A stretch of DNA of 64,000 nucleotides from Thiomicrorhabdus sp. zzn3 (GTDB taxonomy: Bacteria > Pseudomonadota > Gammaproteobacteria > Thiomicrospirales > Thiomicrospiraceae), in contig NZ_JARUQS010000001.1 in the NCBI RefSeq assembly GCF_029767755.1, forward strand, positions 1,240,001-1,304,000, read 5' to 3'. The notes under the pieces are model-generated. The model did no database searches. It saw only the letters and a list, made by a program, of their open reading frames with translations, and was not told the origin of the DNA. A program made the translations under genes and the position numbers. Below are positions 17,842 through 56,270 of the stretch, piece by piece (the first letter of the stretch is position 1; the number at the start of each line of letters is the position of its first letter).

Positions 17842-19518
17842 CTAGAACAGTCCGGTAATCACTCCTTCGTCGGAAATATCAATTTTCTCTGCCGTCGGCA
17901 CTTTCGGCAGTCCCGGCATGGTCATCATATTGCCGGCAATGGCGACGATGAACCCGGCTCCATTTTCCAATTTAACATCGCTGATCTCGACCACATGCCC
18001 GCTTGGCGCACCACGTAACGTGGGATCGGTTGAAAATGACATCTGCGTCTTCGCCATGCAGATCGGCAAATCGCCGTAATGTTCTTGAAGACGGTCGATC
18101 TCTTTTTTCACCTTGGCACTGGCGACAATTTCCTTGGCGCCATACAACTTGGTGGCAATGGTTTCGATTTTGTTCCAGATCGGCAGTTCGCTGTCGTAGA
18201 GATACTCGAAATCCGCTTCGCGGTTATCAGCGATTTCCAGTACCGCCTGCGCCAGCTCCTCAGCTCCGGCACCGCCTTCGGCCCAGTGTTTGGAAACCAC
18301 ACACTGAACCCCCAACTCGGCACACTTGTCCATTAACAACTGGGTTTCATCATCGGAATCGTAGGTAAAATGATTGATACACACCACGGCCGGCAAGCCG
18401 TAATTCACGGTGACATTATAAATATGACGTTCCAGGTTGGCGAAACCGGCTTCCAAGGCGGCGAGATTTTCCTGGTTCAAATGATCACGCTCAACACCAC
18501 CATGGTATTTCAACGCGCGTACCGTCGCCACCAACACGACCGCGGAGGGTTTCAGCTTGGCAGAGCGGCATTTGATATTGAGAAATTTCTCAGCGCCCAG
18601 GTCGGCGCCAAAGCCAGCTTCGGTCACCGCATAGTCGGCCAGTTTCAATGCCGTTTTAGTGGCGGTCACCGAATTGCAACCATGGGCAATGTTGGCGAAT
18701 GGGCCACCGTGCACAATCGCCAGATTATTTTCCAACGTCTGCACAATATTCGGTTTAATCGCATCTTTCAACAAAGCGGCCATCGCCCCGTGCGCCTTCA
18801 GATCACTGGCATAAACCGGGGTCACACCATCGTTTTTGTAACCAATAATAATGCGGCCCAAACGCTCCTTAAGATCAGCACGGTTGGTCGCCAGGCAGAG
18901 AATCGCCATGACTTCTGAGGCGACCACAATATCAAAGCCATCTTCACGTAGAAAACCGTTGATCACACCGCCCTGACCGACGGTAATCTGACGCAACGCG
19001 CGATCATTCATATCCACCACACGCTTCCATTTGATACGTCGCGCATCAATGTCCAACGCGTTGCCTTGATGAATGTGGTTATCGATCATCGCGGCCAACA
19101 GATTGTGCGCCACACCGATGGCGTGGAAATCTCCGGTAAAGTGCAGATTGATGTCCTCCATCGGCACCACCTGGGAATAACCGCCCCCGGCCGCCCCGCC
19201 TTTCATACCGAAACACGGTCCCAGAGAAGGTTCACGCAGGCAGATCAGGGTCTTTTTGCCCAGCCGGTTCAAAGCGTCACCCAGGCCAACGGTAGTGGTG
19301 GTTTTCCCCTCTCCGGCCGGGGTCGGGCTGATCGCAGTCACCAGAATCAATTTGCCCTCTTCCTTTTTATGCGACAGGTTGTCGACGTATTCCAAGGAGA
19401 GCTTGGCTTTATAGTGGCCGTATGGATCCAGGTGTTCAGCAGGAATGCCAAACGCTTCATTCGCCAATTCAATAATCGGTTTCATTTTGGCGTTTTGTGC
19501 AATTTCAATATCCGACAT
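17842..19518 (-). CDS. fhs: formate-tetrahydrofolate ligase
   Basis: 558 residues. The ATP-binding [18 protein letters not shown] and the downstream [20 protein letters not shown] are characteristic of 10-formyl-THF synthetase. It activates formate with ATP onto tetrahydrofolate. Its neighbours glcDEF and a glyoxylate aminotransferase suggest a role in glycolate and one-carbon salvage. PurU, encoded at 51696-52547, runs the opposite half-reaction by releasing formate, so the two could balance the formyl-THF pool. Confidence 0.97.
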
Positions 19519-36243: not shown

Positions 36244-36385
36244 CGCCATACACCTTTCTATCTAAACCGCCTCCCTTTCATGTATAACAAATATTAATAA
36301 ACAAGAAACGATAACCGTTTGCCCGGGGACGATCCCATACGATGTGGTATATAATTTATTCAGACACAGTATCGAGAACGAACAC

Positions 36386-36982
36386 ATGACTGAAAAAGAA
36401 CATCACAGCCTAGATGTATATATTGGCAAAACCATCAACACAGTCAGAAAAAAACAAGGTTTGACGATTGCTGAAGTATCCGAACAATCCGGTATCAGTC
36501 GAGGCATGCTCAGCAAAATTGAAAACGGCCAAGTCTCGCCAAGCCTAGATTCTTTGCTGAAAGTATCTAAAGCCCTAGGCATCCCCATTTCCGCTTTTTT
36601 TAAAGAATTTGATACTGAGGAAGGTGGGGCGCAACACATAAAAGCCGACGAGCGCTTGGAAGTTGTTCGACGCGGCACCAAGGTTGGACATACTTACCAC
36701 CTATTGGCCTATGACAACGGGCCGAAAAAACGCTTTGAGCCCTTCTTGATCTCTCTCGACAACCAAAGTGAAATCTTTCCCTCCTTCTCACATGAAGGCT
36801 ACGTTTTCATGTATTTACTGGAAGGTGAAATGATTTATCGCCACGGCAAACAGACCTACCATATGAAGCCGGGAGACTCTTTGACCTATAACGCGCAAAT
36901 CTCACACGGCCCGGAAGAACTTATTCAGGTACCGATCCGTTTTCTCAATGTCATCGTCTACGGAGAAAATGCACCAACATAG
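36386..36982 (+). CDS. XRE-family regulator with C-terminal cupin domain
   Basis: 198 residues from the ATG at 36386. Helix-turn-helix with RKKQGLTIAEVSEQSGISRGML and the linked SKIENGQVSPSLDSLLKVSKAL, then a cupin fold (MKPGDSLTYNAQISHGPEEL). Members of this class often sense small amines or amino acids. Its neighbours are glnK-amtB, so a role in nitrogen or methylamine control is a fair guess, not shown. Confidence 0.8.
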   Translation: MTEKEHHSLDVYIGKTINTVRKKQGLTIAEVSEQSGISRGMLSKIENGQVSPSLDSLLKVSKALGIPISAFFKEFDTEEGGAQHIKADERLEVVRRGTKVGHTYHLLAYDNGPKKRFEPFLISLDNQSEIFPSFSHEGYVFMYLLEGEMIYRHGKQTYHMKPGDSLTYNAQISHGPEELIQVPIRFLNVIVYGENAPT

Positions 36983-37207: not shown

Positions 37208-37546
37208 ATGAAAATAATTCAAGCGATCATCAACCCTTATGCACTTGATAACGTCCGGGAAGCCCTATCTGAACTTGGGGAATTCGGCATGACAGCAACT
37301 GAAGTTAAGGGTTATGGTCGTCAGAAAGGTCACACAGAAACCTATAGAGGAACCGAGTATGAAATTTCTTACGTTCCTAAAATAATGATCGAAATCGCTG
37401 CTTCAGATGATCAAGTTGATGACATCGTACAGTGCATAATCGGAGGAGCCAAAAGCGAAAAAATCGGTGCAGGAAAAATCTTTATCTTACCGTTAGAGGA
37501 AGTCGTGAGAGTTCGAACCTCTGAAACGGGTGATAGCGCCATTTAG
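37208..37546 (+). CDS. glnK: nitrogen regulatory protein P-II
   Basis: 112 residues. The T-loop carries the uridylylation tyrosine (Tyr51) in RGTEYEISYVPK, and the B-loop GGAKSEKIGAGKIFILPLEE is conserved. As the gene 22 bases ahead of amtB, it is GlnK, which plugs the ammonium channel when nitrogen is plentiful. Confidence 0.93.
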   Translation: MKIIQAIINPYALDNVREALSELGEFGMTATEVKGYGRQKGHTETYRGTEYEISYVPKIMIEIAASDDQVDDIVQCIIGGAKSEKIGAGKIFILPLEEVVRVRTSETGDSAI

Positions 37547-37568: not shown

Positions 37569-38819
37569 ATGGAAGGAAACATTCTACAATTATCCTATGC
37601 ATTGGATACTTTTTATTTTCTAGTCAGTGCCGTCCTCGTCATGTGGATGGCGGCTGGTTTTGCTATGCTGGAAGCGGGTCTTGTCCGTAGCAAAAACACA
37701 GTTGAAATCCTAACCAAAAACGCACTGCTTTACAGTGTGGCCTGCACGATGTACCTGATTGTTGGTTACAACATCATGTACCCTGGCGATCCTATTAGCG
37801 CTTATCTGCCAAACCTAAGCTTCTTCCTGGGGGCGGACAACACAGTTGACGCGGTTATTGCCGGTGGTGATGATGCACCTTACTACTCAGGCATGTCAGA
37901 CTTCATCTTCCAAGCGGTATTTGCTGCGGCTACCATGTCTATCGTTTCAGGGGCGATTGCCGAACGTATGAAACTATGGCCATTCCTGGTATTTGCCGTT
38001 GTTATGACTGCTGTTATCTACCCAATGGAAGGTTACTGGAAATGGGGCGGAGGCTGGTTAGATCAGCTTGGCTTCCAAGACTTTGCAGGTTCTGTTGTGG
38101 TTCACATGGCCGGTGCCTCTGCTGCTTTAGCCGCAGTTATTATGGTTGGTCCACGTCTCGGTAAATACGGTGAGAATGGAAAAGTCAACGCTATTCCAGG
38201 TGCAAACCTACCAATGGCCACCCTAGGTATGTTCATCCTGTGGATGGGATGGTTTGGTTTCAACGGTGGTTCTGAACTGATGGTTTCTAACGTTGATGAA
38301 TCTAACGCTGTTGCTGCTATCTTCGTCAACACCAACGCCGCGGCAGCGGCCGGTATGATTGCGGCTGCACTTTTAGGTCGCTTCATGTTCGGTAAAACGG
38401 ATTTGACCATGGTCATCAACGGTGCCCTAGCTGGTCTGGTTGCGATTACTGCAGAACCGCTTGCGCCAACGCCTGGTCTGGCTCTGTTTATCGGTGCCGT
38501 GGGTGGAATCATCGTGGTGCTTTCAGTGGTATTCCTGGACAAACTAAAACTGGATGACCCAGTTGGTGCCATCTCTGTACACGGTACTGTCGGTATCTGG
38601 GGTATCTTCGCTGTCTTGTTCAGCAACTCAGATGCAACATTCTTCGGCCAGTTGGTTGGAACCGTGGCCACCTTTGCATGGATGTTTATCGCTTCCCTGA
38701 TTGTTCTATTCATCTTGGATAAAACAATGGGACTACGTCCAACCAAAGAAGAAGAGTTGGAAGGTATGGATATGAAAGAGTGTGGTATGGAAGCCTACCC
38801 TGAGTTCGATCAAAAATAA
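37569..38819 (+). CDS. amtB: ammonium transporter
   Basis: 416 residues with about 11 membrane helices. GFAMLEAGLVRSKNTVEIL, FNGGSELMVSNVD and SVHGTVGIWGIFAVLFS are Amt signatures; the pore histidines (first in VVHMAGASAALAA, second in SVHGTVG) are in place. Amt proteins carry ammonium and also methylammonium, which links this gene to the methylamine operon downstream. Confidence 0.95.
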   Translation: MEGNILQLSYALDTFYFLVSAVLVMWMAAGFAMLEAGLVRSKNTVEILTKNALLYSVACTMYLIVGYNIMYPGDPISAYLPNLSFFLGADNTVDAVIAGGDDAPYYSGMSDFIFQAVFAAATMSIVSGAIAERMKLWPFLVFAVVMTAVIYPMEGYWKWGGGWLDQLGFQDFAGSVVVHMAGASAALAAVIMVGPRLGKYGENGKVNAIPGANLPMATLGMFILWMGWFGFNGGSELMVSNVDESNAVAAIFVNTNAAAAAGMIAAALLGRFMFGKTDLTMVINGALAGLVAITAEPLAPTPGLALFIGAVGGIIVVLSVVFLDKLKLDDPVGAISVHGTVGIWGIFAVLFSNSDATFFGQLVGTVATFAWMFIASLIVLFILDKTMGLRPTKEEELEGMDMKECGMEAYPEFDQK

Positions 38820-39342: not shown

Positions 39343-39353
39343 ACATCTTCTCC

Positions 39354-40037
39354 TTAAGAAACCAGATAATCCAATAAACGCTCCATCGCCTTCTGTGAAT
39401 CTTCATAAAAAGCTGCCGGCGTTTTCTGTAACTCTTCAACAGACTGAATATAAGGGCCTTCTGGGAGCTTACCGTCAACATCCTTTAGCCAATGATCAAT
39501 GGTCTCTGGAATCACCTCTAAATGATATTGCAGACCAATAATCTTATCTCCCAGCTGAAAGGCCTGATTTTCACAGGCGCGACTGCTCATTAGTCGGATC
39601 GCACCTTCGGGCAGATAAAAGGTTTCGCCATGCCAGTGAAACACGGGCTTAGACAACGTGATCTGAATACCTTGACCATTGGATACATTGTCCACCGGAT
39701 ACCAGCCGATCTCCTGATGCTCGCCCTGAACCACATCCGCGCCCAACACATTGGCAATCATTTGCGCCCCCAAACAAATCCCCAGCAAAGGGATTCCATC
39801 TTCAACCACTTCTGCCAGGCAACTTTTCTCCGTTTTGAGCCAAGCATAATCGTCTTCGTCATTAACGCTCATCAGACCGCCCAAGACAATCACCAGGTCG
39901 AACTCCTTGACAGGCGGAAACTCCGGATTTGGCTCAAATAGCTTCACATAGGTCAGATCAGCCTGATGCGATGCCATCCAAGACGCCATATTACCAATAC
40001 CCTCATTAGGCTCGTGTTGAAACACCAGAACTTTCAC
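39354..40037 (-). CDS. class I glutamine amidotransferase (GMP synthase-like)
   Basis: 227 residues. The nucleophile elbow LLGICLGAQMIANVLGAD and a histidine in GLQYHLEV show a GATase1 fold; it lacks a synthetase partner domain. Relatives of this type cleave gamma-glutamyl compounds. In a window with gamma-glutamylmethylamide synthesis that is suggestive but unproven. Confidence 0.75.
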   Translation of the reverse strand: MKVLVFQHEPNEGIGNMASWMASHQADLTYVKLFEPNPEFPPVKEFDLVIVLGGLMSVNDEDDYAWLKTEKSCLAEVVEDGIPLLGICLGAQMIANVLGADVVQGEHQEIGWYPVDNVSNGQGIQITLSKPVFHWHGETFYLPEGAIRLMSSRACENQAFQLGDKIIGLQYHLEVIPETIDHWLKDVDGKLPEGPYIQSVEELQKTPAAFYEDSQKAMERLLDYLVS

Positions 40038-40178: not shown

Positions 40179-42260
40179 CTACAACCGAATCGCTTCCATA
40201 TTCTTTTGTAACTCGTTTGCACGCTCGATCACCGAGTGCGTTAACTGATTAGACTGGTCCGATAAGGCCGCATTCTCTTGGGTAAACTGATCGAGCTGCG
40301 CAATCGCCTGGTTAACGTGCTCAATACTGGTGATCTCTTCTTCCGCTGCAGAGCGAATGGTTGAAACAATCTCGATCAGTTTATCCATATTGTCGTTAAT
40401 GTCTTCCAAGGCCTTGGTCGAATCTTGAGAAAGGCTTTCACCATGACTCACCAAGGCCAAATTTTGCTCGACCAGCTGGCGAATCTCACCGGAAGACTCT
40501 GCGGCTCTCATGGCCAAATTTCTGACTTCTCCGGCTACCACGGCAAACCCTCTACCATGCTCTCCAGCGCGCGCTGATTCAACCGAGGCATTCAGAGCCA
40601 ACAGATTGGTTTGGAACGAAATCCCTTCCATCAATTCCACAATGCCTTCAATTTTGCGACTGGCCTCATTGATTTGCCCCATCGCTTCACGCGATTGATT
40701 CACAATGTCACTGCCTTTAACGATGTGATCTTTGACTACCTGCCCAAGCTCCATGGCCGTGTTGGATTCATGAGAGGTATTGCGGATGGTGTTTGCCAGT
40801 TCCTCCATACTTGCAGCCGTTTGCTCCAGCGAGGCCGCTTGCTGCTGGGTTCGCCCATTAAGATTCTCATTGTCTTTACCCAAAGCTCCCATGTTCTGAA
40901 CCACAATGCGACTGGTGTCCGCCGTTTGCGCCAGCAACCCCCTGAGGTTTTGCATGGCTTGATTAATCCCCGCCTTCAAACGCTCCAGATCTCCCTGGTA
41001 GGCTCCAAGAATGGTTTGTGTCATATCGCCTTGGGAAAAGGCCTCCATCACCTGATTAATCTCTTTAAAGGCGCCATCCAGTGAAGAAGCACTGTCATTG
41101 ACCGCCCCTTTAAGGTCAGACAAGTCACCCGGTAACGCCTCTTCAACCCGATATGAAAATTGTCCGTTCGCCATAAAGAACATCACCCTAGTCACCGCTG
41201 CCAACGCACTTTTAATAGTCAACATCGACGCGACCCCCTGTCTGACCGTTTCAGCCTCCTCTTCACTCAAGCCAATTGACAAAGCATCCAAATGCTTGGA
41301 CAAAGAAATATCAATACCGGCCACACCCACGACTTTTCCTTGATCGATAATCGGTGTGACCACGCTGGTGATCAAGAACTCTTGGTCCCCGACCGGATAC
41401 ATATACGGATCCACCACTTGTGGCTGTTGCGTTTGCAGCGGTTTAAGATAAAAGTCCCCCAAACCGGGCACTTCGTAATCCACCAAAGGCTCCAGAGCCA
41501 GCTGACCGTTTTCTCCACGCCCCCAGAAAGGCATAAATCTGCCCGTTGAATCATGCCAATCAACGCTCTTAAACTGCTCGTCTTTGCCATCAAATGCGCC
41601 GGGTTCCCAACCGCTCCAACAGGCCAGAAAGTTTGGATGGTCTTGCAGTTTGCCATGAATAAGCTGCAACGCTTCTTTTCGTGAAGCGCCCTGACGACGA
41701 GACTCCAATAACGCTTGCGCCATCTCAGCCACCACTTGCTGCGCCTGCGCAATGTCATCCGTCGCTTTGGCTAAAGTTAATTGGCCACCAAAGTCTCCGT
41801 CTTGAATCGCACCGACCACCTGCTTGATCACCTTGCGTGCCTGTTTATTTTGACGAATGGACTCCGCCAACTTCTCTTTGAATTCATCGGGAACCGCTTG
41901 ATCAAGCTCATGAATGCGGCGCTCACTCTCCTGCTTCATCGCCAGCCATAATGCATCAAACACCTCTGTGTGTGGTTTTTGCTCACGTAAAAGCGACTCC
42001 AACTCTCTCTTCACCCCTTCTGGAAACGTTTCCGGTAGAGTACCCTCGGCCAAATACTGTTGAACAGCAGCCTGATGGACTCGAAGCAGACGAGTATAAA
42101 AAAACACCACCGAAGCCAAAGAGGTCAAAACGATCGCAGCCATCAGCCCCCCGCTATCGATCGGCATTTGCGCACTTTTCTCCCAGAGCAGTGCACCGCC
42201 GACGACCAGTAGATTGATGACTATGACACCTAAAATCGCAAGCTGCATTTTCACCCTCAA
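40179..42260 (-). CDS. methyl-accepting chemotaxis protein with an apparently cytoplasmic Cache domain
   Basis: 693 residues. Two membrane helices lie at about 6-25 and 38-57 with only a short loop between. A Cache-type sensor (about 175-322: ACWSGWEPGAFDGKD, GRFMPFWGR, VDPYMYPVGDQEFLITS, GVAGIDISL) comes after the second helix, and no further helix follows. HAMP-like linkers and the methyl-accepting signalling hairpin (NLLALNASVESARAGEHGRGFAVVAGEVRNLAMRAA region) complete it. Normally Cache domains lie outside the membrane, so this would sense something inside the cell. Ligand unknown. Confidence 0.85.
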   Translation of the reverse strand: MRVKMQLAILGVIVINLLVVGGALLWEKSAQMPIDSGGLMAAIVLTSLASVVFFYTRLLRVHQAAVQQYLAEGTLPETFPEGVKRELESLLREQKPHTEVFDALWLAMKQESERRIHELDQAVPDEFKEKLAESIRQNKQARKVIKQVVGAIQDGDFGGQLTLAKATDDIAQAQQVVAEMAQALLESRRQGASRKEALQLIHGKLQDHPNFLACWSGWEPGAFDGKDEQFKSVDWHDSTGRFMPFWGRGENGQLALEPLVDYEVPGLGDFYLKPLQTQQPQVVDPYMYPVGDQEFLITSVVTPIIDQGKVVGVAGIDISLSKHLDALSIGLSEEEAETVRQGVASMLTIKSALAAVTRVMFFMANGQFSYRVEEALPGDLSDLKGAVNDSASSLDGAFKEINQVMEAFSQGDMTQTILGAYQGDLERLKAGINQAMQNLRGLLAQTADTSRIVVQNMGALGKDNENLNGRTQQQAASLEQTAASMEELANTIRNTSHESNTAMELGQVVKDHIVKGSDIVNQSREAMGQINEASRKIEGIVELMEGISFQTNLLALNASVESARAGEHGRGFAVVAGEVRNLAMRAAESSGEIRQLVEQNLALVSHGESLSQDSTKALEDINDNMDKLIEIVSTIRSAAEEEITSIEHVNQAIAQLDQFTQENAALSDQSNQLTHSVIERANELQKNMEAIRL

Positions 42261-42495: not shown

Positions 42496-43818
42496 TCAAT
42501 AAGAATGTCTGCCCGGAATCCAATCGGTTCCGGCAAGCGGTACACCGGCCATCGCCGCCGCTTCCACATTCAATGCCACCAAATCTTCCGGTTCCAAGTT
42601 ATGCAGATGGGATTTTCCACACGCTCTCGCCAGCGTTTGCGCTTCCATGGTCAATACATTCAAATAATTGGCGAGACGGCGTCCGGCCAGCTCCGGATCC
42701 AACCTTGCAGCCAGCTCCGGATCTTGGGTAGAGATCCCCGCCGGACATTTACCTTCGTGATAATCGTCGTAATACCCCGCGGCAGAACCGATCTTTTGAT
42801 ACTCTTCATCCCACTTGGGATGATTACAACCCAATGCAATCAGCGCCGCCGTTCCAATGGCGACCGCATCGGCGCCCAGCGCCATACACTTGGCCACATC
42901 GGCCCCGCTGCGAATCCCACCGGAGACGATCAGCTGCACTTTGCGATGCATATCCATCTCTTGCAAGGCACGTACCGCCTGAGGAATCGCCGCCATCGTT
43001 GGAATCCCCACATGTTCGATAAAAACGTCCTGCGTCGCCGCAGTACCGCCTTGCATACCATCCAGTACGATCACGTCCGCCCCGGCTTTCACTGCCAGTT
43101 TGACATCATAGTAAGTACGGGTCGCGCCGATCTTGACGTAAATTGGCACATTCCAGTCAGTGATCTCTCTCAGTTCCTGAATCTTGATGGCCAGATCATC
43201 CGGCCCGGTCCAGTCCGGATGACGGCAGGCACTGCGCTGATCAATACCTTTTGGCAAGTCGCGCATTTTGGCCACACGGTCGGTGATTTTCTGCCCCAGC
43301 AACATACCGCCGCCGCCGGGTTTGGCACCTTGCCCCAAAACCACTTCAATCGCATCCGCTTTACGTAAATCGTCCGGGTTCATACCGTAGCGAGAGGGTA
43401 AATATTGATAGACCAGAGTTTTGGAGGTTTTACGCTCTTCCGGAGTCATTCCGCCGTCTCCGGTCGTAGTTGAGGTTCCGGCCATATTCGCGCCGCGTCC
43501 CAAAGCTTCTTTGGCATTGGCCGACAAAGCACCGAAACTCATCCCGGCAATAGTCACTACCGTATCCAGTTTGATCGGGTTCTTGGCAAAACGCGTGCCC
43601 AAAGTCACGTCGGTACCGCACTTCTCACGATACCCCTCCAGAGGGTAGCGCGACATACTCGCCCCCAAAAACAACAGGTCGTCAAAATGCGGAACTTTGC
43701 GCTTGGCGCCGAACCCTCTAATGTCGTAAATTCCGGTATCCGCCGCCCGTTGAATTTCGTTGATGACATCGCGACTGAACGTGGCCGACTCAATTAATCC
43801 TGGCTGTTTCTCACTCAT
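42496..43818 (-). CDS. mgsC: N-methylglutamate synthase subunit C (glutamate synthase FMN domain)
   Basis: 440 residues. It matches the FMN-binding domain of the large glutamate synthase subunit: GAKPGGGGMLLGQKIT, VIVLDGMQGGTAATQDVF and SGGIRSGADVAKCMALGADAVAIGTA. Cysteines in ALGCNH and GKCPAGISTQD would hold a 3Fe-4S cluster. In the N-methylglutamate pathway it transfers the methylamine group to glutamate. The alternative name GlxD (glutamate synthase-like) fits if the operon serves sarcosine. Last gene of the operon. Confidence 0.8.
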   Translation of the reverse strand: MSEKQPGLIESATFSRDVINEIQRAADTGIYDIRGFGAKRKVPHFDDLLFLGASMSRYPLEGYREKCGTDVTLGTRFAKNPIKLDTVVTIAGMSFGALSANAKEALGRGANMAGTSTTTGDGGMTPEERKTSKTLVYQYLPSRYGMNPDDLRKADAIEVVLGQGAKPGGGGMLLGQKITDRVAKMRDLPKGIDQRSACRHPDWTGPDDLAIKIQELREITDWNVPIYVKIGATRTYYDVKLAVKAGADVIVLDGMQGGTAATQDVFIEHVGIPTMAAIPQAVRALQEMDMHRKVQLIVSGGIRSGADVAKCMALGADAVAIGTAALIALGCNHPKWDEEYQKIGSAAGYYDDYHEGKCPAGISTQDPELAARLDPELAGRRLANYLNVLTMEAQTLARACGKSHLHNLEPEDLVALNVEAAAMAGVPLAGTDWIPGRHSY

Positions 43819-43839
43819 AACCGATTCCTTCTGCTTAAC

Positions 43840-44523
43840 TTAGTACGCTGATGCATTATCAACTTTGAATGTATAGAGCTGACGGGCTGATCCGTAGCGG
43901 GTAAATTCAGCCGGATCATCCTCACAGCCTGCTTCTTTTAAAAGCTGACTCAACTCTTCCAGGTGCTCCGCACGCATCTCTTTTTTGACGCAGTCCGCTC
44001 CTAAAGATTCCACACGGCCTTTGACATAAATATGCACTTCATACAGCGAGTCCCCGAGGGCTTCACCGGCATCGCCGCACACAACCAAACACCCGGACTG
44101 TCCCATAAAGGCACTCATGTGGCCGACCGAGCCTTTGACGACAATATCGACCCCTTTCATGGAAATGCCGCAACGTGCCGCGGCATCGCCATCAATCACC
44201 AGCAGGCCGCCATGAGCGGTTGCTCCGGCGGATTGACTGGCATTTCCCTTTACATGCACCTTACCGGACATCATGTTCTCCGCCACACCCTGACCGGCAT
44301 TACCGTTGATAACCACTTCGGCTTTCTGGTTCATCCCGGCGCAGTAATAACCGGCATGTCCGTTCAGATTCACGCTAATCGGCTGATCCAGACCCACGGC
44401 GACATTATGTTCACCCATCAGGTTATCCACGTTAATTTCGTCCGTTGCGTCCTTTGGTAAATCGTGCAAGGCTTGATTTAACTCTCTTACCGTCTGTTGT
44501 TTCAAATCAAATTTCATCGTCAT
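43840..44523 (-). CDS. mgsB: N-methylglutamate synthase subunit B (GXGXG domain)
   Basis: 227 residues with repeated Gly-rich turns (GHAGYYCAGMNQKAEVVINGNAG type) forming the beta-helix GXGXG domain of glutamate synthase C-termini. It is one of three small proteins (with MgsA and MgsC) that replace the single-chain enzyme. It is 20 bases after mgsA. Confidence 0.78.
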   Translation of the reverse strand: MTMKFDLKQQTVRELNQALHDLPKDATDEINVDNLMGEHNVAVGLDQPISVNLNGHAGYYCAGMNQKAEVVINGNAGQGVAENMMSGKVHVKGNASQSAGATAHGGLLVIDGDAAARCGISMKGVDIVVKGSVGHMSAFMGQSGCLVVCGDAGEALGDSLYEVHIYVKGRVESLGADCVKKEMRAEHLEELSQLLKEAGCEDDPAEFTRYGSARQLYTFKVDNASAY

Positions 44524-44542
44524 TCCCTCTTACCTCAACCCC

Positions 44543-45442
44543 TTAATCACGTCCCCAGAAATAGACTTTTCCCGGATCAGGCTCCCACAAATTGGCTTGT
44601 TCAATACCCGGCAAGGTCGTTAACGCATGGTATTCGGACGACATGGCGACATAGTCGTCGGTTTCCGCAATCACCGCCGGCTTGCAGGCGATCGGGTCGC
44701 GAATCACCGCAAAGCCGTTACGCGTGCCGATAGTGAAAGTAAAGAAGCCGTCCAAATCATCAAGTGCGGCCGTCAGAGCTTCTTCCACGCTGTCTCCGGA
44801 CTGCAGGCGATGGGTCAGATAACCGGCGGCCACTTCGGAGTCGTTTTCCGTCTCAAAGACAATGCCTTTTTTCTTCAACTCTTCACGCAGACGGTTGTGG
44901 TTGGAGAGAGAGCCGTTGTGCACCAGACACAAATCCATGCCGGTTGAAAACGGATGTGATCCCTCCATGGTCACGCCACTTTCTGTTGCCATACGCGTAT
45001 GGCCGATGATGTGCGAGCCTTTCATTCCCTTCAGATTGAATTTGCCCGCAATCTCTTCCGGTAGACCAATCGACTTTAAAATCTCAATCGAATGGCCAAC
45101 ACTCATGATTTTCACGTCAGGCGCTTGATCGGTAATGAAGCCGCGCACGCCGGCTTCGTCGGCGTTGATCTTAAACACCGCGGCATTGGCGTTATGGAGT
45201 ACCGACACAGAGGCATCAAATGCTTCTTCCAGCTGACCGGCCAATTCATGCCAGTGGTAATGAGGATCTTCGTGCTGCAAGGTCAGCTTCACCATGTCCT
45301 CACCGACTTCATCCCCGTAAATGGCAAAGCCAGCACTGTCCGGACCGCGATCGGTCATCGCAATCAACATCGGTTCGAACAACGCACCCAACTGATCTTG
45401 CAGCGCATCATTTTTCAAATAAAGGCCCACAATTCCGCACAT
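44543..45442 (-). CDS. mgsA: N-methylglutamate synthase subunit A (class II amidotransferase)
   Basis: 299 residues. Nucleophilic Cys2 is at the start (MCGIVGLYLKN), and GHTRMATESGVT plus LCLVHNGSLSNHN are the class II amidotransferase signatures. In MgsABC it would release methylamine from gamma-glutamylmethylamide. It stands directly after gmaS, 11 bases apart. Confidence 0.8.
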   Translation of the reverse strand: MCGIVGLYLKNDALQDQLGALFEPMLIAMTDRGPDSAGFAIYGDEVGEDMVKLTLQHEDPHYHWHELAGQLEEAFDASVSVLHNANAAVFKINADEAGVRGFITDQAPDVKIMSVGHSIEILKSIGLPEEIAGKFNLKGMKGSHIIGHTRMATESGVTMEGSHPFSTGMDLCLVHNGSLSNHNRLREELKKKGIVFETENDSEVAAGYLTHRLQSGDSVEEALTAALDDLDGFFTFTIGTRNGFAVIRDPIACKPAVIAETDDYVAMSSEYHALTTLPGIEQANLWEPDPGKVYFWGRD

Positions 45443-45453
45443 ACGATTTCTCC

Positions 45454-46785
45454 TTAAAAATATTCGGCGTAACGATCCACTTCCCAGTCAGAAACATGTC
45501 GCTGGTACTCCACCCACTCCATGCGTTTGATCTCGATGAACTCTTTGACGAATTTCTCGCCGAACTGTTCGTGGAAGAGCGTGCTGTTTTCCAGCTCGTT
45601 TATCGCCTCTGAAAGCGATTGCGGCAAGGTATCGATGCCCAACTCTTTCAGTTCGTCAAACGACAGTTTGTAGTGATTTAAATTACGCGGTTCACCCGGA
45701 TTCATTGTTTTCTCAATTCCGTCCAGGCCGGCGGCAATAATCGCAGCCGTGACCAGGTAAGGATTGCATCCCGCATCGGGAAGACGGAATTCCAGGCGCC
45801 CGTATGGCACTCGAACCATCGCCGTTCGGTTGTTGTCGCCATAGCTGATAAAGGCTGGCGCCCAGGTAGCACCGGATAATGAACGCCCAACCACCAGACG
45901 CTTGTAGGAGTTCACCGACGGCGCGGCAAAAGCACACAACGCTTTGGCGTGATGCATCAATCCGCCCAGGAAGTGGTAAGCCATTTCCGACAGGCCGAGG
46001 TTATTGGGATCGGCATCGTCACCAAACAGGTTATTGCCCGCTTGGTCGCAAACCGAAAGGTGGAAGTGGAAACCGTTACCGGTTCGGTTCGGATTCGGTT
46101 TCGGCATAAACGAACAGGTCAACCCCATCTCATTGGCGATTTCACTGCCGGCCATTCGCACAAAGGTGATACGATCTGCCGAGGTTTTGGCATCGGTGTA
46201 GGTGTAGTTAATCTCAAATTGGCCGTTGGCGTCTTCATGGTCAATCTGGTAAACATCAAATCCGACCTGCTGCAGCGAATCGACAAACTTTTCCAAAAAC
46301 GCGCGTGAGCGTGACAATCCCTTGTAGTCGTAACAGGGCTTATCCAAGGTGTCGGTGTCGTCATAAGGCACCAGTTTGCCGTCACTGCGTTTCAACAGGC
46401 TAAACTCCGGCTCAATCCCGGTATTCAAGGTCCAACCCTTTTCAGACAGGCGTTCAATCTGCTGGAGCATAATGTGACGCGAATCAAACTCATAGGGTTC
46501 ATCATTGACATAACCGGTACAGGCGATTCGGGCATACCCTTTCTGCCAAGGCACCAGACTCAGCGTGCTCAAATCCCCTCTGGCCATATAGTCGGCTTCA
46601 TGCGGTTCAAGCCCTAATCCCCACACGGCAAATCCGGCAAACCCGGCACCGCTTTCCACCACATCTTCCAAACAATGTGCCGGAACCGATTTGGTTTTGG
46701 CGACACCGTGAATATCGACAAACTGGGCCAAGATGAACTTAACGTCGTTCTCTTTGAGAAACTGTTTTGCTTCTTCCAAGGTCAT
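45454..46785 (-). CDS. gmaS: gamma-glutamylmethylamide synthetase
   Basis: 443 residues of the glutamine synthetase III-like (GlnT) family: [36 protein letters not shown] and the C-terminal [15 protein letters not shown]. The segments EDANGQF and MEWVEY are those I know as the targets of gmaS-specific primers, favouring GmaS over ordinary glutamine synthetase. It joins methylamine to glutamate with ATP, the first step of the N-methylglutamate pathway. It is placed between mgdABCD and mgsABC, which it serves. Confidence 0.85.
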
Positions 46786-46788
46786 TTT

Positions 46789-47262
46789 TTACACTCCAAT
46801 TTTCAGAAAGGGGGATGAATCGATCTGTTTCTGTAGCGTCGTTAGCAGATAATGGCCATAGGTCGGATCACAGCCGACAACCAACGGGGCATCATCCGAA
46901 ATGAGCATCCATACTGAAACGCCTGCGACGGAAACCATCACAAAATCACCAGGAGAGGCCTGCCTGAAATCGTAAATACATACTTCGGACATCAAGGCGC
47001 GCCAGTCACCTGACAATTCAAACACCACATCCCCTCGTTGGAATGCATACTGTTTTTGATTTAAAACTTTGGAATCAAAGTTATTGAGATTGATTAAAAA
47101 CTCTTCGACACCCAAACGGGCAATAAACTGATGGGTCGCAACCTTGCGATAAGAGAAAACCAGCATTTCATCTCCGCCCTCCTCTGTCAACGCCTGTGAT
47201 ATTTTCTGACCTCTTAAATGCAGCAGGCCTGGCATCGATAATTCGGTTATCTGTACGCTCAT
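46789..47262 (-). CDS. mgdD: N-methylglutamate dehydrogenase subunit D (sarcosine oxidase gamma type)
   Basis: 157 residues, related to the gamma subunit of heterotetrameric sarcosine oxidase: it begins with a short strand and contains FLINLNNFDSKVLNQ and DAPLVVGCDPTYGHYLL-like segments. The ATG overlaps the mgdC stop by four bases (ATGA). It likely supports the folate-binding half of the complex. Confidence 0.7.
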   Translation of the reverse strand: MSVQITELSMPGLLHLRGQKISQALTEEGGDEMLVFSYRKVATHQFIARLGVEEFLINLNNFDSKVLNQKQYAFQRGDVVFELSGDWRALMSEVCIYDFRQASPGDFVMVSVAGVSVWMLISDDAPLVVGCDPTYGHYLLTTLQKQIDSSPFLKIGV

Positions 47263-50165
47263 GCTGCGGCTCCTTTCGGGTTTTCGACCGGGTGCTGCCT
47301 GCTGCCATCCGGGTCATAAAAAGGCGTTGCCACCACTGAAGCGGAGACAAACGAACCGTCAGTCAACTTGATCTGGAATGAGCTCCCAACATCGGAAAGA
47401 TCTTGGCGAATATCCGCCAAACCGATCACTTTTTGCAGTGCCGGACTGAATCCGACACTGGTGACGCGCCCCACCATCTCGCCTTGTTCGATAATCAGGT
47501 TGGATTCCAAAGGCCTGCGGGCAGCATCGTTGACCTGCAACTCAAACCCAACCAAAGTCCGCGAGGTGGACTGTTTCAGTTTGGCCAGACTTTTCTTGCC
47601 GATAAAATACGGTTTCTTCAGGTGAACCGCCCACGGCATGCCCGCCTCAAACGGGTTCATCAAGCCATCGGTATCCTGACCGACAATGATATGGCCTTTT
47701 TCCAGACGCAACAGACGCTGCGCCTCAACCCCGAAAGGCTGAATGCCATAGGCTTTACCGGCCTGCATCATCGCCTGCCAAACGGTTGCGGAGTCGTTGG
47801 CATTGACATGGATTTCATAGCCCAACTCACCAACAAAGCCCACGCGGATCAAAGTGGCCTGGCAACCGGCCACTGGAGCCTGACGCATCGCCAGATAAGG
47901 GAAGCCATCGTTGCTTAAATCAATGTCCGTCAGCTCGGCCAGAATTCTGCGGCTGTTTGGGCCAGCCAGATTCATCGCCGCCAACTGCCCGGTGCGATTG
48001 ACCACGGTCACGTTCAGCCCCCATTCCAGGATCTTTTTCTGAATCAGGCGGTAAGCGGCATCCGAGGTGCCGGTGGTGGTGGTGACATAAAAGTGTTCTT
48101 CTGCATAACGCACCGCGACGCCGTCATCGGTAATAATGCCGGCATCGTCCACCATCAGCGCGTATCGGCTGCTGCCCAACTTCATATTGGACATATTCAT
48201 GGTGTAAAGACGATCCATTAACGCCGCCGCATCTGGCCCAAAGACTTCCAGCTTACCTAAGGTGGAGACGTCTACCAGGCCTGCCGAACTTCTCACCGCA
48301 CTCACTTCCGCTTCGACACAGGCCTGCTTGGTTTCGGCGGTTTGATAATATTCCGGTCTCAGCCAATTACCTGCTTCCATGAACTTGGCATTGGCTTCGC
48401 GGTGAAAATCGTGCAACACCGTCATACGTTCCGGTCTGAAACGCATGCCCGCCAGATGCGAAACCGGCACCGGATGGAACATCGGGCGCGCGGTGGTGGA
48501 ACCGGTTTCATCGATACTCTTAGCGGTTAGACGCGCCAGAATACGAATCCCGTTCATATTGCTGTGTTTGCCTTGACTTGGCCCCATACCGATCGTCGAA
48601 AAGCGCTTCATCAGTTCGATATTGTCAAACCCCTGGGCAATGGCGCCTTTCAAATCTTTAAGCTGAATATCCTCGTCAAAATCGACAAAGTTTTTACCTT
48701 TAGGGTGTTCCCAAATCGGGTAATGATGCGAGTGAGCGCTCACTTCTCGATATCGAGTCACCACCGAATTTTCGCTCTCGGTTTTAGAAGTCCCGTGGGA
48801 AGTGACATACTGAGCCGCCATTTCACCCGCCAGTTTTCCGTCTTCGATCTGGTGGCCGATTTCATGCACGCCGTTAAGGCGTCCACAAGCAAACATACCG
48901 TCCGGCAAGACGCTCGGCAATAACTGGTGCGCAGTCGCGTCATAAGAAAACTTGCCTCCGGCCTGATAAACCAAAGCACCCGCCGGTGCCCAGCCGACAC
49001 TCATTAGCAAACCGTCACATGCAATTTCGTATTCACCGCCCGCGGCTTTAAATACCAATCCTTTAAGTTGTTTTTTACCCAGTGCTTCAACAATTTCCGC
49101 ATATTTATATACTGGGATTCCTTTGGTTAGAACTTTTTGGACCCACTTATGAGAGACCTCTCCGGTATCGACAATGGCGCCAACCTCCACGCCGGAAGCG
49201 AGCAAATCCAAAGCCGCCCGATAGCCTTCTGGATTGGAGGTTAACACCACCGCTTCTTTGCAAGGCGCCACCCCATAACGCGCAATCAGGCGTTGTGCCG
49301 CACTGGCGTTCATCACTCCGGGCAGATCGTTATTTCGGAATACCGCCGGTTGCTCAAACACGCCCGTTGCCGCTATAACCGCTTGCGCAGACAGTTTGAT
49401 CAAACCTTGGGAAGTATTGACCGCCAACCAGTGATCGCCGTAATAACCGGCCACCGTGCTGTCAGTAAGCACCTGTATGTTGGGATGGCTGAAAACCGCG
49501 GCCTTCAAACGGTTACGGCTGGCGAACACGGTTTCTTCATTGGCAAACTGATAATCCAGACTGCCGCCGATAAACGGATTTTCATCAATCAGGCAGACCT
49601 CCACTCCGTTCTCGGCCGCTTCCAACGCCGCAGCCATACCGGAAGGCCCGGCTCCGACCACCGCGACGTCACAGTAGTGGTAACGCTTGGGCTGACGCTG
49701 CTCGCTCCAACCGGTATCGACAGTACCCAATCCCGCCATATGTCTGATCAGCGATTCCCACTTAGGAAACAAGAACCTGGGCGAATAGAACGCGCGATAA
49801 TAAAAACCGACCGGCAGGAATTTACCGATCCATTCCACTAGCGATCCCTTGTCGGATTTGAGCGAACCGAAGGTATTGACCGCTTGCAAAGAGTGGTTTT
49901 CGTCAATTGTCACCACATCACCGCGTACATTCGGGCGGTCTTGCCCCTGGAACAACGCGTTCACATCGTGGTTGGCAAAACTGAGCAGGCCTCTCCGGCG
50001 GTGATATTTGAAGCTGCGCCCAAGCACCTTAACACCGTTGGCCCACAGTGCGCTGCTGATCACATCGCCTTTGAAACCGGTATAGGTTTTACCTTCAAAT
50101 TCAAACGACACCGTTTCGTTGCGATCGATCCATTCCAAAGGTTGTGGAGGCAATCTAAGCGTCAT
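47259..50165 (-). CDS. mgdC: N-methylglutamate dehydrogenase subunit C (sarcosine oxidase alpha type)
   Basis: 968 residues from the ATG at 50165 (AGGAG upstream). Order: an N-terminal ferredoxin-like segment (FEFEGKTYTGFKGDVI), a Rossmann dinucleotide domain (VAVVGAGPSGMAAALEAAENG), then a C-terminal aminomethyltransferase (GcvT-like) domain with GELGYEIHV and EAQRLLRLEKGHIIVGQDTDG. It oxidises N-methylglutamate and hands the methyl carbon to tetrahydrofolate. Two CAGGCCTG copies lie in the middle (48276, 48319). Confidence 0.88.
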   Translation of the reverse strand: MTLRLPPQPLEWIDRNETVSFEFEGKTYTGFKGDVISSALWANGVKVLGRSFKYHRRRGLLSFANHDVNALFQGQDRPNVRGDVVTIDENHSLQAVNTFGSLKSDKGSLVEWIGKFLPVGFYYRAFYSPRFLFPKWESLIRHMAGLGTVDTGWSEQRQPKRYHYCDVAVVGAGPSGMAAALEAAENGVEVCLIDENPFIGGSLDYQFANEETVFASRNRLKAAVFSHPNIQVLTDSTVAGYYGDHWLAVNTSQGLIKLSAQAVIAATGVFEQPAVFRNNDLPGVMNASAAQRLIARYGVAPCKEAVVLTSNPEGYRAALDLLASGVEVGAIVDTGEVSHKWVQKVLTKGIPVYKYAEIVEALGKKQLKGLVFKAAGGEYEIACDGLLMSVGWAPAGALVYQAGGKFSYDATAHQLLPSVLPDGMFACGRLNGVHEIGHQIEDGKLAGEMAAQYVTSHGTSKTESENSVVTRYREVSAHSHHYPIWEHPKGKNFVDFDEDIQLKDLKGAIAQGFDNIELMKRFSTIGMGPSQGKHSNMNGIRILARLTAKSIDETGSTTARPMFHPVPVSHLAGMRFRPERMTVLHDFHREANAKFMEAGNWLRPEYYQTAETKQACVEAEVSAVRSSAGLVDVSTLGKLEVFGPDAAALMDRLYTMNMSNMKLGSSRYALMVDDAGIITDDGVAVRYAEEHFYVTTTTGTSDAAYRLIQKKILEWGLNVTVVNRTGQLAAMNLAGPNSRRILAELTDIDLSNDGFPYLAMRQAPVAGCQATLIRVGFVGELGYEIHVNANDSATVWQAMMQAGKAYGIQPFGVEAQRLLRLEKGHIIVGQDTDGLMNPFEAGMPWAVHLKKPYFIGKKSLAKLKQSTSRTLVGFELQVNDAARRPLESNLIIEQGEMVGRVTSVGFSPALQKVIGLADIRQDLSDVGSSFQIKLTDGSFVSASVVATPFYDPDGSRQHPVENPKGAAA

Positions 50166-50424
50166 TGACAGCTCCTTTCTGTGCCATACGGATCGACTCA
50201 ATGCGATCCGTCAGGGTATCTCTTTCAAATACAAACCATATACCGGTCGGGCGGTGATACCACCATTCGAATTGAATCTGGGGATCACTGTGGCGGTAAA
50301 AAACAAACTGGGCCCACTCCCGATCCGTCACCGATTCCAAATCCGGTTCGGATTTGACTACGCCGCCATAGGTAAACTCACTCAACGCGCGCTTACCGAT
50401 TAAAGGACAATTCACAAATTTCAT
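50155..50424 (-). CDS. mgdB: N-methylglutamate dehydrogenase subunit B (sarcosine oxidase delta type)
   Basis: 89 residues. MKFVNCPLIGKRALSEFTYGG and WWYHRPTGIWFVFERDT match the delta subunit. Two of the four zinc ligands known in sarcosine oxidase (cysteines near 9 and 63) are missing; only Cys6 and His57 remain. It overlaps mgdC by 11 bases. Confidence 0.78.
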   Translation of the reverse strand: MKFVNCPLIGKRALSEFTYGGVVKSEPDLESVTDREWAQFVFYRHSDPQIQFEWWYHRPTGIWFVFERDTLTDRIESIRMAQKGAVNDA

Positions 50425-50444
50425 AATCGATCCTCAACGCCTCT

Positions 50445-51686
50445 CTAGTGCCCAACCGAAGCCGCGCCTTTTTCACCCACCAACTTGAAATTCTCAAACC
50501 GGTCTAAGGCAAAAGGTTTAATCAGTTCGTGAACCTGGTCATGGGCTACGGTATGCGCCATGGTCTTGCCGCTGATCGGCGTCGCCTTAAATCCCCAGGT
50601 TCCCCAACCGCTGTCCAGATAGAATCCCTCTACCGGCGTTTTTCCCATAATCGGCGCAAAATCCGGAGTAATGTCACTCATGCCGGCCCATTGACGCATG
50701 ATTTTCAGGCGGCTGGTAAACGGAAACAGGTCCATCATTTGATCGGTCAGCCCTTCGACAAAATCAAGCGTGGAACGGGTAGAGTGCAGCTCTGCCGGAT
50801 CCACCGACGCCCCCATCACCAGCTCACCGCGTGACGATTGACTGACATAGACGTGCAAACTTCCGGAAACCACAATCGTATTCATAAACGGCTTCACCGG
50901 TTCGGTCACACACGCTTGCAGCGGAAAGACCTCAATCGGGGTTGGAATGTCAAGCATGCGGGTAATGCGCGGCGTAGAACCCGCCACCATCGAGATCACC
51001 TTATTGGTTTGAATATCGCCGCGGTTGGTCTGCACGCCTACGACCTTACCGCCCTGGGTTTGGATGCCGGTAACCTGAGTTTTCTGGTGAATCTCCACCC
51101 CGCGCAGTTGCGCACCGCGTGCATAGCCCCAGGCGACCGCATCATGACGGGCCACCGCGCCCGGTTCGTGATAGAGTGCGCCCATAACCGGATGCTGACC
51201 GTTGCATTCCACATTCATATAGGGAATGTCTTTTTGAATGGTTTCCACATCCACGACGTCACTTCTGATGCCGTGGTGCTTATTCACTTCCGCGCGCCAG
51301 CGCATGGTACGCATTGCGCTGTCGGTATGCGCCAAGGTAAAGTGGCCGCGAGTGGAATAGAAGATATTAAGGTCAAAGTCCTCGCTCAAATCTTCAAATA
51401 ACTTGAGACTGGCATCATAAAACTTGACCCCTTCCGAAGTCAGGTAGTTGGAGCGTACAATCGTGGTATTGCGCCCGGTATTGCCGCCGCCGATATAGCC
51501 CTGTTCCAGCACGGCGACATTGGTTATGCCATGCTCTTTCGCCAAGTAATAGGCGCAGGCCATGCCATGTCCGCCACCGCCGATAATCACAGCGTCGTAA
51601 GACTGTTTAAGCGGTTTCTCGCTTGGAAAAAAGCGCAACTCCTCTTCCGGTTTCTTCCAAGCGTATTTCAACAACCTTAACGGCAT
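50445..51686 (-). CDS. mgdA: N-methylglutamate dehydrogenase subunit A (sarcosine oxidase beta type)
   Basis: 413 residues. FAD-binding motif VIIGGGGHGMACAYYLAKEHG and the flavin-contacting GGGNTGRNTTIVRSNY with the later GTWGFKATPISGK are typical of the beta subunit and related DAO-fold amine oxidases. It carries the catalytic flavin that oxidises the N-methyl amine. It follows purU at nine bases. Confidence 0.87.
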   Translation of the reverse strand: MPLRLLKYAWKKPEEELRFFPSEKPLKQSYDAVIIGGGGHGMACAYYLAKEHGITNVAVLEQGYIGGGNTGRNTTIVRSNYLTSEGVKFYDASLKLFEDLSEDFDLNIFYSTRGHFTLAHTDSAMRTMRWRAEVNKHHGIRSDVVDVETIQKDIPYMNVECNGQHPVMGALYHEPGAVARHDAVAWGYARGAQLRGVEIHQKTQVTGIQTQGGKVVGVQTNRGDIQTNKVISMVAGSTPRITRMLDIPTPIEVFPLQACVTEPVKPFMNTIVVSGSLHVYVSQSSRGELVMGASVDPAELHSTRSTLDFVEGLTDQMMDLFPFTSRLKIMRQWAGMSDITPDFAPIMGKTPVEGFYLDSGWGTWGFKATPISGKTMAHTVAHDQVHELIKPFALDRFENFKLVGEKGAASVGH

Positions 51687-51695
51687 ACTCCACTC

Positions 51696-52547
51696 CTAGG
51701 CGAATACAACGGTTTTATTGCCGGTAACAATGACGCGGTCTTCAATGTGATATCTGAGACCACGCGCCAAGGCATTCTTTTCAACGTCTTTCCCGAGCAC
51801 CACCATCTCCTCGGCCGATTCGCTGTGCGAGACGCGCGCGACTTCCTGCTCGATAATCGGCCCCGCATCCAACTCCTCGGTCACATAATGACAAGTTGCA
51901 CCGATAAGCTTCACCCCTCTCTCATACGCTTGGTGATAAGGTTTAGCCCCGATAAACGAGGGCAGGAAGCTGTGGTGGATATTAATGATCTGTCCTGGGT
52001 ACTTCTGGCACAGGTCGGGAGGAATAATTTGCATATAACGCGCCAACACAATGGTGTCCGCCTCATAGTGTTCGACCCACTTGACCACTTCCGAAAATGC
52101 AAAAGGCTTATTCTCTGGTGTCACCGGAATGTGGATATAAGGAATGCCGTGCCATTCAACCAGTTCCTTCAGATCAGGATGATTGGAAATCACGCATGGA
52201 ATCTCAAAATCCATCTCTTTGGATTTCCAGCGATACAGCAGGTCATACAGACAATGGTCCTGCTTACTGACCATAATCACCACACGTTTTTTCCTATTGA
52301 GCGGGGATAATTTCCAATCCATGGAAAACGCTTCGGCAATTTCAGAGAACTTATCCCTGAACTCCTCCTCAGACATTTGCATATCGGAAATTTCATTGCG
52401 CATAAAAAAACGTCCCAGATCGGCATCGGCATGATGGTTGGCCTCCTTGATCATGCAGCCGTTATCCGCCAGAAATTTAGACGTACTCGCCACAATCCCC
52501 ACCACATCCGGACAGGAAACAGTCAACACAAACGCGTTATCGCTCAC
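51696..52547 (-). CDS. purU: formyltetrahydrofolate deformylase
   Basis: About 283 residues from a GTG at 52547, preceded by AAAGGA; the ATG at 52589 lies upstream of the -10 and is unlikely. An N-terminal ACT-type domain (VLTVSCPDVVGIVA) is followed by the formyltransferase domain with NIHHSFLPSFIGAKPYHQAYERG and the VKLIGATCHYVTEELDAGPIIEQ region. It hydrolyses 10-formyl-THF to formate and THF. As the first gene before mgdABCD it regenerates free folate while the methyl carbon is being removed. Confidence 0.94.
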   Translation of the reverse strand: MSDNAFVLTVSCPDVVGIVASTSKFLADNGCMIKEANHHADADLGRFFMRNEISDMQMSEEEFRDKFSEIAEAFSMDWKLSPLNRKKRVVIMVSKQDHCLYDLLYRWKSKEMDFEIPCVISNHPDLKELVEWHGIPYIHIPVTPENKPFAFSEVVKWVEHYEADTIVLARYMQIIPPDLCQKYPGQIINIHHSFLPSFIGAKPYHQAYERGVKLIGATCHYVTEELDAGPIIEQEVARVSHSESAEEMVVLGKDVEKNALARGLRYHIEDRVIVTGNKTVVFA

Positions 52548-52580
52548 CGTTAAGATTCCTTTAATGAACTTTTGATTCTT

Positions 52581-52608
52581 ATAATACACCTCAATTATTT
52601 CATTTCAA
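52581..52608 (-). promoter_or_regulatory. promoter of the purU-mgd-gmaS-mgs operon
   Basis: TTGAAA (52603-52608) and TATTAT (52581-52586) on the minus strand, 16 bases apart. Transcription would start at about 52574, leaving a 27-base leader with the AAAGGA site before the GTG. Confidence 0.6.
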
Positions 52609-55292: not shown

Positions 55293-55367
55293 AGGCCAAA
55301 AACTTTAATAATGGATTTAGGTGTTAAAGTATTGCGGGTGATTTTTGCTGTTTATACTCAATCAAAG

Positions 55368-56270
55368 TTAACCGAGACACTGATAAAAACTTTGATCATG
55401 AGGTGTCGCACCGCGAATACCCACCACTTTGCTGGCAAACGTCTGTGCGGTTGAAAGCGTTTTCTCAATAGGCCAGTTTTTGATTAGGCCGTGAATATAA
55501 ATGGCGGTAAAAGCGTCTCCAGCCCCCACCGTATCAACAAACCGATCCACTCTTTCAGGCTTTATGCCGAAAAAGCCGGTTGGCGTCAGCACCAAAGCAC
55601 CATCCGCTCCCTGGGTCACAATGACCTGCTCACAACCAAACTGGCCCATAAAAGCGTGCATCGCCAATTTGAGATCAGGTTGCATAAAGCCCAACTCACG
55701 AAGCTCGTCAACATTCAGCTTGATCCACCGAGCCTGTCCTAACCACTCAAATAGAGACTCCCGATCCCACCAAGGGGCTCTTAGATTGACATCCACAAAC
55801 ATCTCCCACTGACCGGCTTCAACCAACAAACGAAATTGCTGTTTGGCATAATCGCTTCTTAACGCGAGGGAGCCATGATACAGAATGCCTGTTGCCTGAT
55901 TCAGCTTGGTACAGGCCTGTTCAATAAAATCGTAGGCGCTGTCCGCCTTAATATCATAATGGGGTTCATTATCGATTAAAGAGACTTGAACCTGTCCGGT
56001 CGGGTGCTGCTTATCCTGTTGAATATTATCCGTTGAAATTCCCCAGGAGCGGGCCTGTTGCAAAATCTGTTCACCGAGTTGATCTTCCCCGACACGAGAA
56101 ATAAAAATCGGTTGGTCGCCTAGCGCCTGCAAATGCCAACAGACGTTAAAAGGTGCGCCGCCCAGCACTCGTTCAGCTTGATCGGCTTGCCCCGCCCGCT
56201 CACTGCGGTTAAAACAGTCAAATAAGACTTCGCCATAGATGGTAATTTGCCTTGTCTGAGATTCAGTCAT
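55368..56270 (-). CDS. PfkB-family fructokinase
   Basis: 300 residues. It has the N-terminal LGGAPFNVCWHLQALG and the C-terminal signature DTVGAGDAFTAIYIHGL of PfkB carbohydrate kinases. Position between amylosucrase and the sucrose-phosphate phosphatase suggests it phosphorylates the fructose released from sucrose. A motif copy lies at 55912-55919. Confidence 0.87.
   Translation of the reverse strand: MTESQTRQITIYGEVLFDCFNRSERAGQADQAERVLGGAPFNVCWHLQALGDQPIFISRVGEDQLGEQILQQARSWGISTDNIQQDKQHPTGQVQVSLIDNEPHYDIKADSAYDFIEQACTKLNQATGILYHGSLALRSDYAKQQFRLLVEAGQWEMFVDVNLRAPWWDRESLFEWLGQARWIKLNVDELRELGFMQPDLKLAMHAFMGQFGCEQVIVTQGADGALVLTPTGFFGIKPERVDRFVDTVGAGDAFTAIYIHGLIKNWPIEKTLSTAQTFASKVVGIRGATPHDQSFYQCLG

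Follow-up and report, generated by a model that had tools for sequence, protein, structure and literature searches.

The window studied here, a 64,000-nucleotide stretch of the Thiomicrorhabdus sp. zzn3 genome (contig NZ_JARUQS010000001.1, positions 1,240,001 to 1,304,000), contains nine genes, purU-mgdABCD-gmaS-mgsABC, which are assigned to the N-methylglutamate (NMG) pathway of methylamine use. A first-pass annotation of this DNA had described them as one operon and, indeed, all nine are complete open reading frames that lie in this order on the minus strand, from 52589 to 42496 in window coordinates, and neighbouring genes are spaced by -47 to +21 bases. A terminator-like hairpin (10 pairs and a T run) lies directly 3' of mgsC at 42427-42401; in the region as a whole, neither terminator-like sites (12 vs a shuffle mean of 13.3) nor promoter-like sites (8 vs 9.8) are enriched. 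The genes and the grounds for their assignment are the following:

51696..52589, minus strand: purU, at the head of the operon, formyltetrahydrofolate deformylase (a GTG at 52547 is an alternative start)
50445..51686, minus strand: mgdA, N-methylglutamate dehydrogenase subunit, a sarcosine-oxidase beta-like flavoprotein (soxB model, TSOX beta alignment)
50155..50424, minus strand: mgdB, delta-like small subunit (Pfam SoxD, TIGR01374)
47259..50201, minus strand: mgdC, alpha-like subunit ending in a tetrahydrofolate (GcvT-like) domain (soxA model, TSOX alpha, GcvT structures); an in-frame ATG at 50165 is a likelier start than 50201
46789..47262, minus strand: mgdD, divergent gamma-like subunit, identified from its position
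45454..46785, minus strand: gmaS, gamma-glutamylmethylamide synthetase (structure match, tree, residues)
44543..45442, minus strand: mgsA, N-methylglutamate synthase subunit of the class II glutamine amidotransferase type, starting with MCGIVG (family match, adjoins gmaS in relatives)
43840..44523, minus strand: mgsB, N-methylglutamate synthase subunit (weak model matches, position, identity in relatives)
42496..43818, minus strand: mgsC, at the end of the operon, N-methylglutamate synthase flavin mononucleotide (FMN) subunit (glutamate synthase large-subunit model and structures)

Assignment of the PurU, Mgd and Mgs proteins

PurU scores above the cut-off of its family model (TIGR00655, 354 bits vs 286). 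Two copies above this cut-off are present in the genome of zzn3, and the family occurs in 57 of the 62 genomes sampled from the order, which are related to each other and do not represent independent events. The family itself is thus not specific to the pathway.

The subunit plan of the dehydrogenase and the folds of MgdA, MgdB and MgdC are those of heterotetrameric sarcosine oxidase (SoxBDAG/TSOX; structures 2gag and 1vrq), from which the proteins of the window differ by their scores and by their linkage to gmaS-mgsABC. None of the three reaches the curated cut-off of the corresponding soxB, soxD or soxA model (MgdA: 488 bits vs 529; MgdB: TIGR01374, 58 bits vs 116.5, with 77 bits to Pfam SoxD; MgdC: 825 bits vs 1164). 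MgdA aligns over its full length with the TSOX beta chain, and the alignment keeps a histidine that we take to be the covalent FMN site. MgdC, the only full-length SoxA-type protein of the genome, matches TSOX alpha chains among the solved structures (390 bits) and, across residues 593-964, structures of GcvT. The resemblance of these three subunits to sarcosine oxidases could suggest a dehydrogenase for the breakdown of sarcosine or betaine, rather than for methylamine. Nevertheless, their scores remain under the sarcosine-oxidase cut-offs, the mgd genes are co-linear with gmaS and mgsABC in all 15 operon-bearing genomes of the sample, and neither gmaS nor mgsABC is needed to use sarcosine, so that this explanation appears extremely unlikely.

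The fourth subunit, MgdD, has no match in NCBIfam, Pfam or the PDB, the latter queried with a 16-sequence profile. Its homologues are encoded at the same place, after mgdC and before gmaS, and 16 columns are invariant among them. According to PMC5023235, mgdD diverges among NMG bacteria, methylotrophs of the Methyloversatilis universalis FAM5 type included.

Among the synthase subunits, MgsA matches class II glutamine amidotransferases and its gene adjoins gmaS in relatives too. MgsC scores 152 bits against the glutamate synthase large-subunit model, over its FMN part, also matches glutamate synthase structures and is 92-96% identical across relatives. MgsB is identified mainly by its position: it scores 60 bits against a beta-helix subunit model, under the cut-off, has a faint match to the glutamate synthase C-terminus (18 bits) and is 77-83% identical across relatives.

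Identity of GmaS

The gmaS product exceeds the cut-off of the type III glutamate-ammonia ligase model (677 bits vs 470) and remains under that of the type I model (TIGR00653, 350 bits vs 429). Among solved structures, its best match is the glutamate-methylamine ligase 9qur (657 bits), ahead of 7cql (331 bits) and of other glutamine synthetases (at most 264 bits). Its evolution was studied in a quick tree without bootstrap of 121 rows (114 of them different, some GmaS rows being duplicate records), made up of 95 GmaS sequences, 16 paralogues and 10 GlnA sequences confirmed by BLAST. A branch with a support of 97 separates the 95 GmaS rows from the 26 others, within which the paralogues (support = 99) and the GlnA sequences (support = 100) form respective groups. 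The grouping of GmaS with true glutamine synthetases, which the first-pass annotation had raised in advance as the contrary outcome of such a phylogeny, did not occur. The GmaS of the window falls in a set of 22 rows (support = 99), all of which come from its own family.

The active site leads to the same distinction. The pocket and catalytic residues of RhGmaS are named in PMC7948447, and their numbering was carried over by hand from the 7cql alignment. All ten (K30, A48, Y147, Q175, D177, E179, E186, N188, W300 and R312) are kept in 95/95 GmaS rows; the paralogues depart from GmaS at three of them (Gln175 to Ser, Asn188 to Asp and Ala48 to Thr). Two residues of type I glutamine synthetases, Asp50 and the glutamate of the Glu-flap, are replaced in GmaS by Ala and Trp. 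The sequence and the tree thus identify the gmaS product as a GmaS, distinct from glutamine synthetase. The segments EDANGQF and MEWVEY, previously put forward as signatures of GmaS, are both present in the protein but are not diagnostic, and they were dropped as such: EDANGQF occurs in 76/95 GmaS rows and also in 4/16 paralogues, including that of zzn3, and MEWVEY in 64/95 GmaS rows and 0/16 paralogues.

The paralogue of zzn3, whose amine pocket is altered, is 41% identical to the GmaS of the window and belongs to an uncharacterised gene cluster found at C1:268480-275507 of the genome (L034:4480-11507) and at the loci L049-L063. The cluster encodes an FA_desaturase-type membrane enzyme, a metallo-beta-lactamase-fold hydrolase, a TIM-barrel protein, an EamA permease, an NMT1/SsuA-type binding protein and a creatininase-family protein. 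The creatininase gene adjoins the paralogue in 16/16 loci and an allophanate hydrolase lies within the fetched locus in 12/16. This cluster may be a second route to organic nitrogen.

Linked genes and distribution of the operon

Proteins above the type III ligase cut-off are present in 21 of the 62 genomes of the order. Judged by their identity to the GmaS of the window, the GmaS type, accompanied by the whole operon, is present in 15 genomes (zzn3 included), the 41% paralogue in 16 and both in ten. The nine genes are found in unchanged order in the loci of 14/14 relatives. Beyond this sample, the best 80 of 389 matches to GmaS provided named loci, seven from the same family and 73 from outside it; mgsA, mgsB and mgsC are all present in 77 of these 80, and the closest ones belong to Thiomicrorhabdus, Thiomicrospira and Hydrogenovibrio. 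The GmaS of Thiomicrorhabdus chilensis DSM 12352 is 86% identical to that of the window. Three further genes accompany the operon in the window:

36344..36982, plus strand: XRE-cupin transcriptional regulator, which likely controls the pathway (HTH_3 and Cupin_2)
37208..37546, plus strand: P-II protein, paired with the Amt gene (Pfam P-II)
37569..38819, plus strand: second marine-type Amt, candidate methylammonium/ammonium transporter (TIGR03644, 672 bits, above cut-off)

The XRE-cupin gene adjoins the operon in 14/14 relatives, and a close Amt and P-II pair does so in 13/14 (in the remaining one, G013, the pair lies elsewhere). Strong matches to the regulator are limited to 16 of the 62 genomes, namely the 15 with the operon and G035; in two of the 16, a stop codon interrupts the stretch that aligns. 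The same 16 genomes are those with two TIGR03644 Amt genes above cut-off; at least one is present in 53/62 genomes, a single copy being the usual state. The Amt of the window is 65% identical to the other one of zzn3. G035 is represented by a 3.9 kb contig (C122, L157) that carries the Amt, P-II and regulator genes and the start of purU, which runs off its end. No GmaS was found in this assembly, yet the content of the contig suggests that it probably holds the operon. In the 73 named loci from outside the family (among the best 80 of 389 matches), a regulator at least 45% identical occurs in 64 and an Amt at least 70% identical in seven. As the regulator accompanies the operon in all 14 relatives and, among the 62 genomes, the doubled Amt is limited to the 15 with the operon and G035, a role in the supply of nitrogen is the best reading of this gene set.

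The loci of 13/14 relatives also include a second folD, whose product shares 55-60% identity with the housekeeping FolD of zzn3. This gene has a bearing on the substrate. GMAS enzymes also glutamylate ethylamine (PMC7677707), so that a broad GmaS could serve a longer primary amine. Yet the frequently linked folD, the tetrahydrofolate domain of MgdC and PurU all indicate a one-carbon unit, and the methylamine pocket of RhGmaS is fully kept, which makes a longer amine very unlikely as the true substrate. In zzn3, the corresponding place holds a chemoreceptor gene (40179-42260), to which the loci of the 14 relatives have no close match. A GATase gene (PRK07053-like, under cut-off) and a GNAT gene, together at 38902-40037, lie between the Amt gene and the operon; they are kept in 12/14 and 13/14 relatives, respectively.

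Role of the pathway and fate of the methyl carbon

Homology, residues, phylogeny and gene neighbourhood together support the earlier proposal of a complete NMG pathway and make the use of methylamine as a nitrogen source its most plausible role. It is likely that this operon would allow a Thiomicrorhabdus-type chemolithoautotroph to draw nitrogen from monomethylamine, with a net gain of nitrogen, some electrons and one-carbon units, but not of CO2 for RuBisCO. Methylammonium would probably enter through the linked second Amt. By homology to studied enzymes, GmaS would then use ATP to form gamma-glutamylmethylamide, MgsABC would convert it into N-methylglutamate, and MgdABCD would oxidise the latter, returning glutamate and passing the methyl carbon to tetrahydrofolate. 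FolD would turn methylene-tetrahydrofolate into formyl-tetrahydrofolate, from which PurU would free tetrahydrofolate and release formate.

The first-pass annotation had suggested a search for folD and formate dehydrogenase genes. The FolD of zzn3 was found outside the window, at C1:1311980-1312840 (L158:7980-8840). As for formate dehydrogenase, the only match of this genome to the TIGR01591 model is NuoG (72.6 bits vs a cut-off of 666), and the cut-off is passed by none of the 62 genomes of the order, vs 5 of 14 control genomes. For the metal-free enzyme, the best score in zzn3 is 130 bits (cut-off 329), which is in the range of 2-hydroxyacid dehydrogenases; 0/14 control genomes pass this cut-off. 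The formate dehydrogenase that methylotrophy with full oxidation of the methyl group calls for was therefore not found in this genome, and the traced chain ends at formate. Methyl carbon probably ends as formate, which, as no formate dehydrogenase was found, would most likely be either excreted or salvaged into one-carbon needs such as purines by a ligase encoded elsewhere in the window, 23 kb from the operon and with no claimed linkage to it:

17842..19518, minus strand: formate-tetrahydrofolate ligase, possible salvage of the formate released by PurU (Pfam FTHFS, 889 bits)

Many relatives have TIGR01591 matches of 450-540 bits, whose reading as formate dehydrogenases was withdrawn. The sole such match inspected, in G015, is an assimilatory nitrate reductase: it ends in Fer2_BFD, scores 448 bits against NasC (under the cut-off) and its gene lies between nirB and cysG. 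Another match under the cut-off, in G004, reaches 544 bits in a frame of 1380 residues. Unlike G015, zzn3 has no molybdopterin match of the size of a nitrate reductase, NuoG with its 72.6 bits being the best, and may lack assimilatory nitrate reduction.

The alternative originally proposed is that oxidation of the methyl group goes as far as CO2, which the adjoining RuBisCO would fix again, so that methylamine would supplement the carbon supply besides providing nitrogen. The genes for the large and small subunits of RuBisCO occupy 34839-29486 together with those for CbbQ and a VWA protein, and cbbR ends 359 bases from the XRE-cupin gene. The distance given earlier, 8 kb, holds approximately in the window (7.7 kb from the end of cbbL to mgsC), but in none of the 14 relatives was cbbL or cbbR seen near the operon, the flanks past the regulator gene spanning 1.1-4.6 kb there. 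zzn3 itself has two genes for form I RuBisCO small subunits. In a sample of 370 genomes of the class, the 12 GmaS carriers (matches at E up to 1e-150) show no association with form I RuBisCO, which is present in six of them (two of these six being from the same genus as zzn3) and in 148 of the 358 others. The pairing of RuBisCO with the operon is thus neither seen conserved in place nor unusual in occurrence, and the link was dropped. FolD and PurU do lead to formate, but without a formate dehydrogenase above cut-off in zzn3 or across the order, in a search that 5 of the 14 controls pass, the refixation of methyl carbon seems improbable.

Several points weigh against methylamine as a nitrogen source. 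The case is built from sequence comparison, and the genomes are related, so that counts of co-occurrence overstate the evidence. PurU is general in the order (57/62 genomes), MgdD has no detectable link to a gamma subunit, and the window locus does not have the linked folD of 13/14 relatives. Finally, the search for metal-free formate dehydrogenase has no positive control among the 14 control genomes.

This well-known pathway has been described in methylotrophs and non-methylotrophs alike, and its presence here is only modestly surprising. The earlier description of the route as one known from methylotrophs is true but incomplete, as its use for nitrogen in non-methylotrophic proteobacteria has been published (PMC5023228, PMC7574528). 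The pathway of M. universalis FAM5 (PMC5023235) likewise includes gmaS, mgsABC and mgdABCD and yields methylene-tetrahydrofolate. Compared with that of methylotrophs, the system described here is found in a CO2-fixing host of the sulfur-oxidiser type, is headed by purU and comes with no detected formate dehydrogenase. It also resembles that of Rhodobacteraceae (PMC7574528) and Donghicola sp. KarMa (PMC5313617), where gmaS, mgs and mgd occur with folD and purU and methylamine provides nitrogen, not carbon; these are heterotrophs, whereas here the operon is linked to a P-II-Amt pair and to an XRE-cupin regulator. A cyanobacterial GmaS appears in a figure legend of PMC7948447. No description of the NMG pathway in Thiomicrospiraceae was found among titles and the starts of abstracts, including those of two papers that mention both Thiomicrorhabdus and methylamine, in a literature mostly outside subscription journals.

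A broader proposal, which falls just short of being probable, is that some Thiomicrospiraceae autotrophs carry an island for harvesting methylammonium, made up of the XRE-cupin regulator, its own P-II and Amt, the NMG operon and usually a private folD, with which they would take the nitrogen of methylamine and discard its methyl carbon as formate for want of a formate dehydrogenase. Dark CO2 fixers would in that case supply formate to their neighbours. The use of methylamine as a nitrogen source would be extended to sulfur-oxidising autotrophs, which raises a simple question: do these CO2 fixers take methylamine nitrogen and leak formate? The second Amt and the regulator, which co-occur with the operon, are two genes whose roles are directly testable.

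The window includes two other groups of genes. At 59774-63088, the gene for a 1104-residue helicase protein of the ResIII/SWI2-SNF2 type adjoins that of a 281-residue protein without Pfam match. At 53337-59314, a group of genes for sucrose, an osmolyte, encodes a sucrose-phosphate synthase/phosphatase, a second S6PP-type phosphatase, a PfkB kinase and an alpha-amylase-family enzyme.

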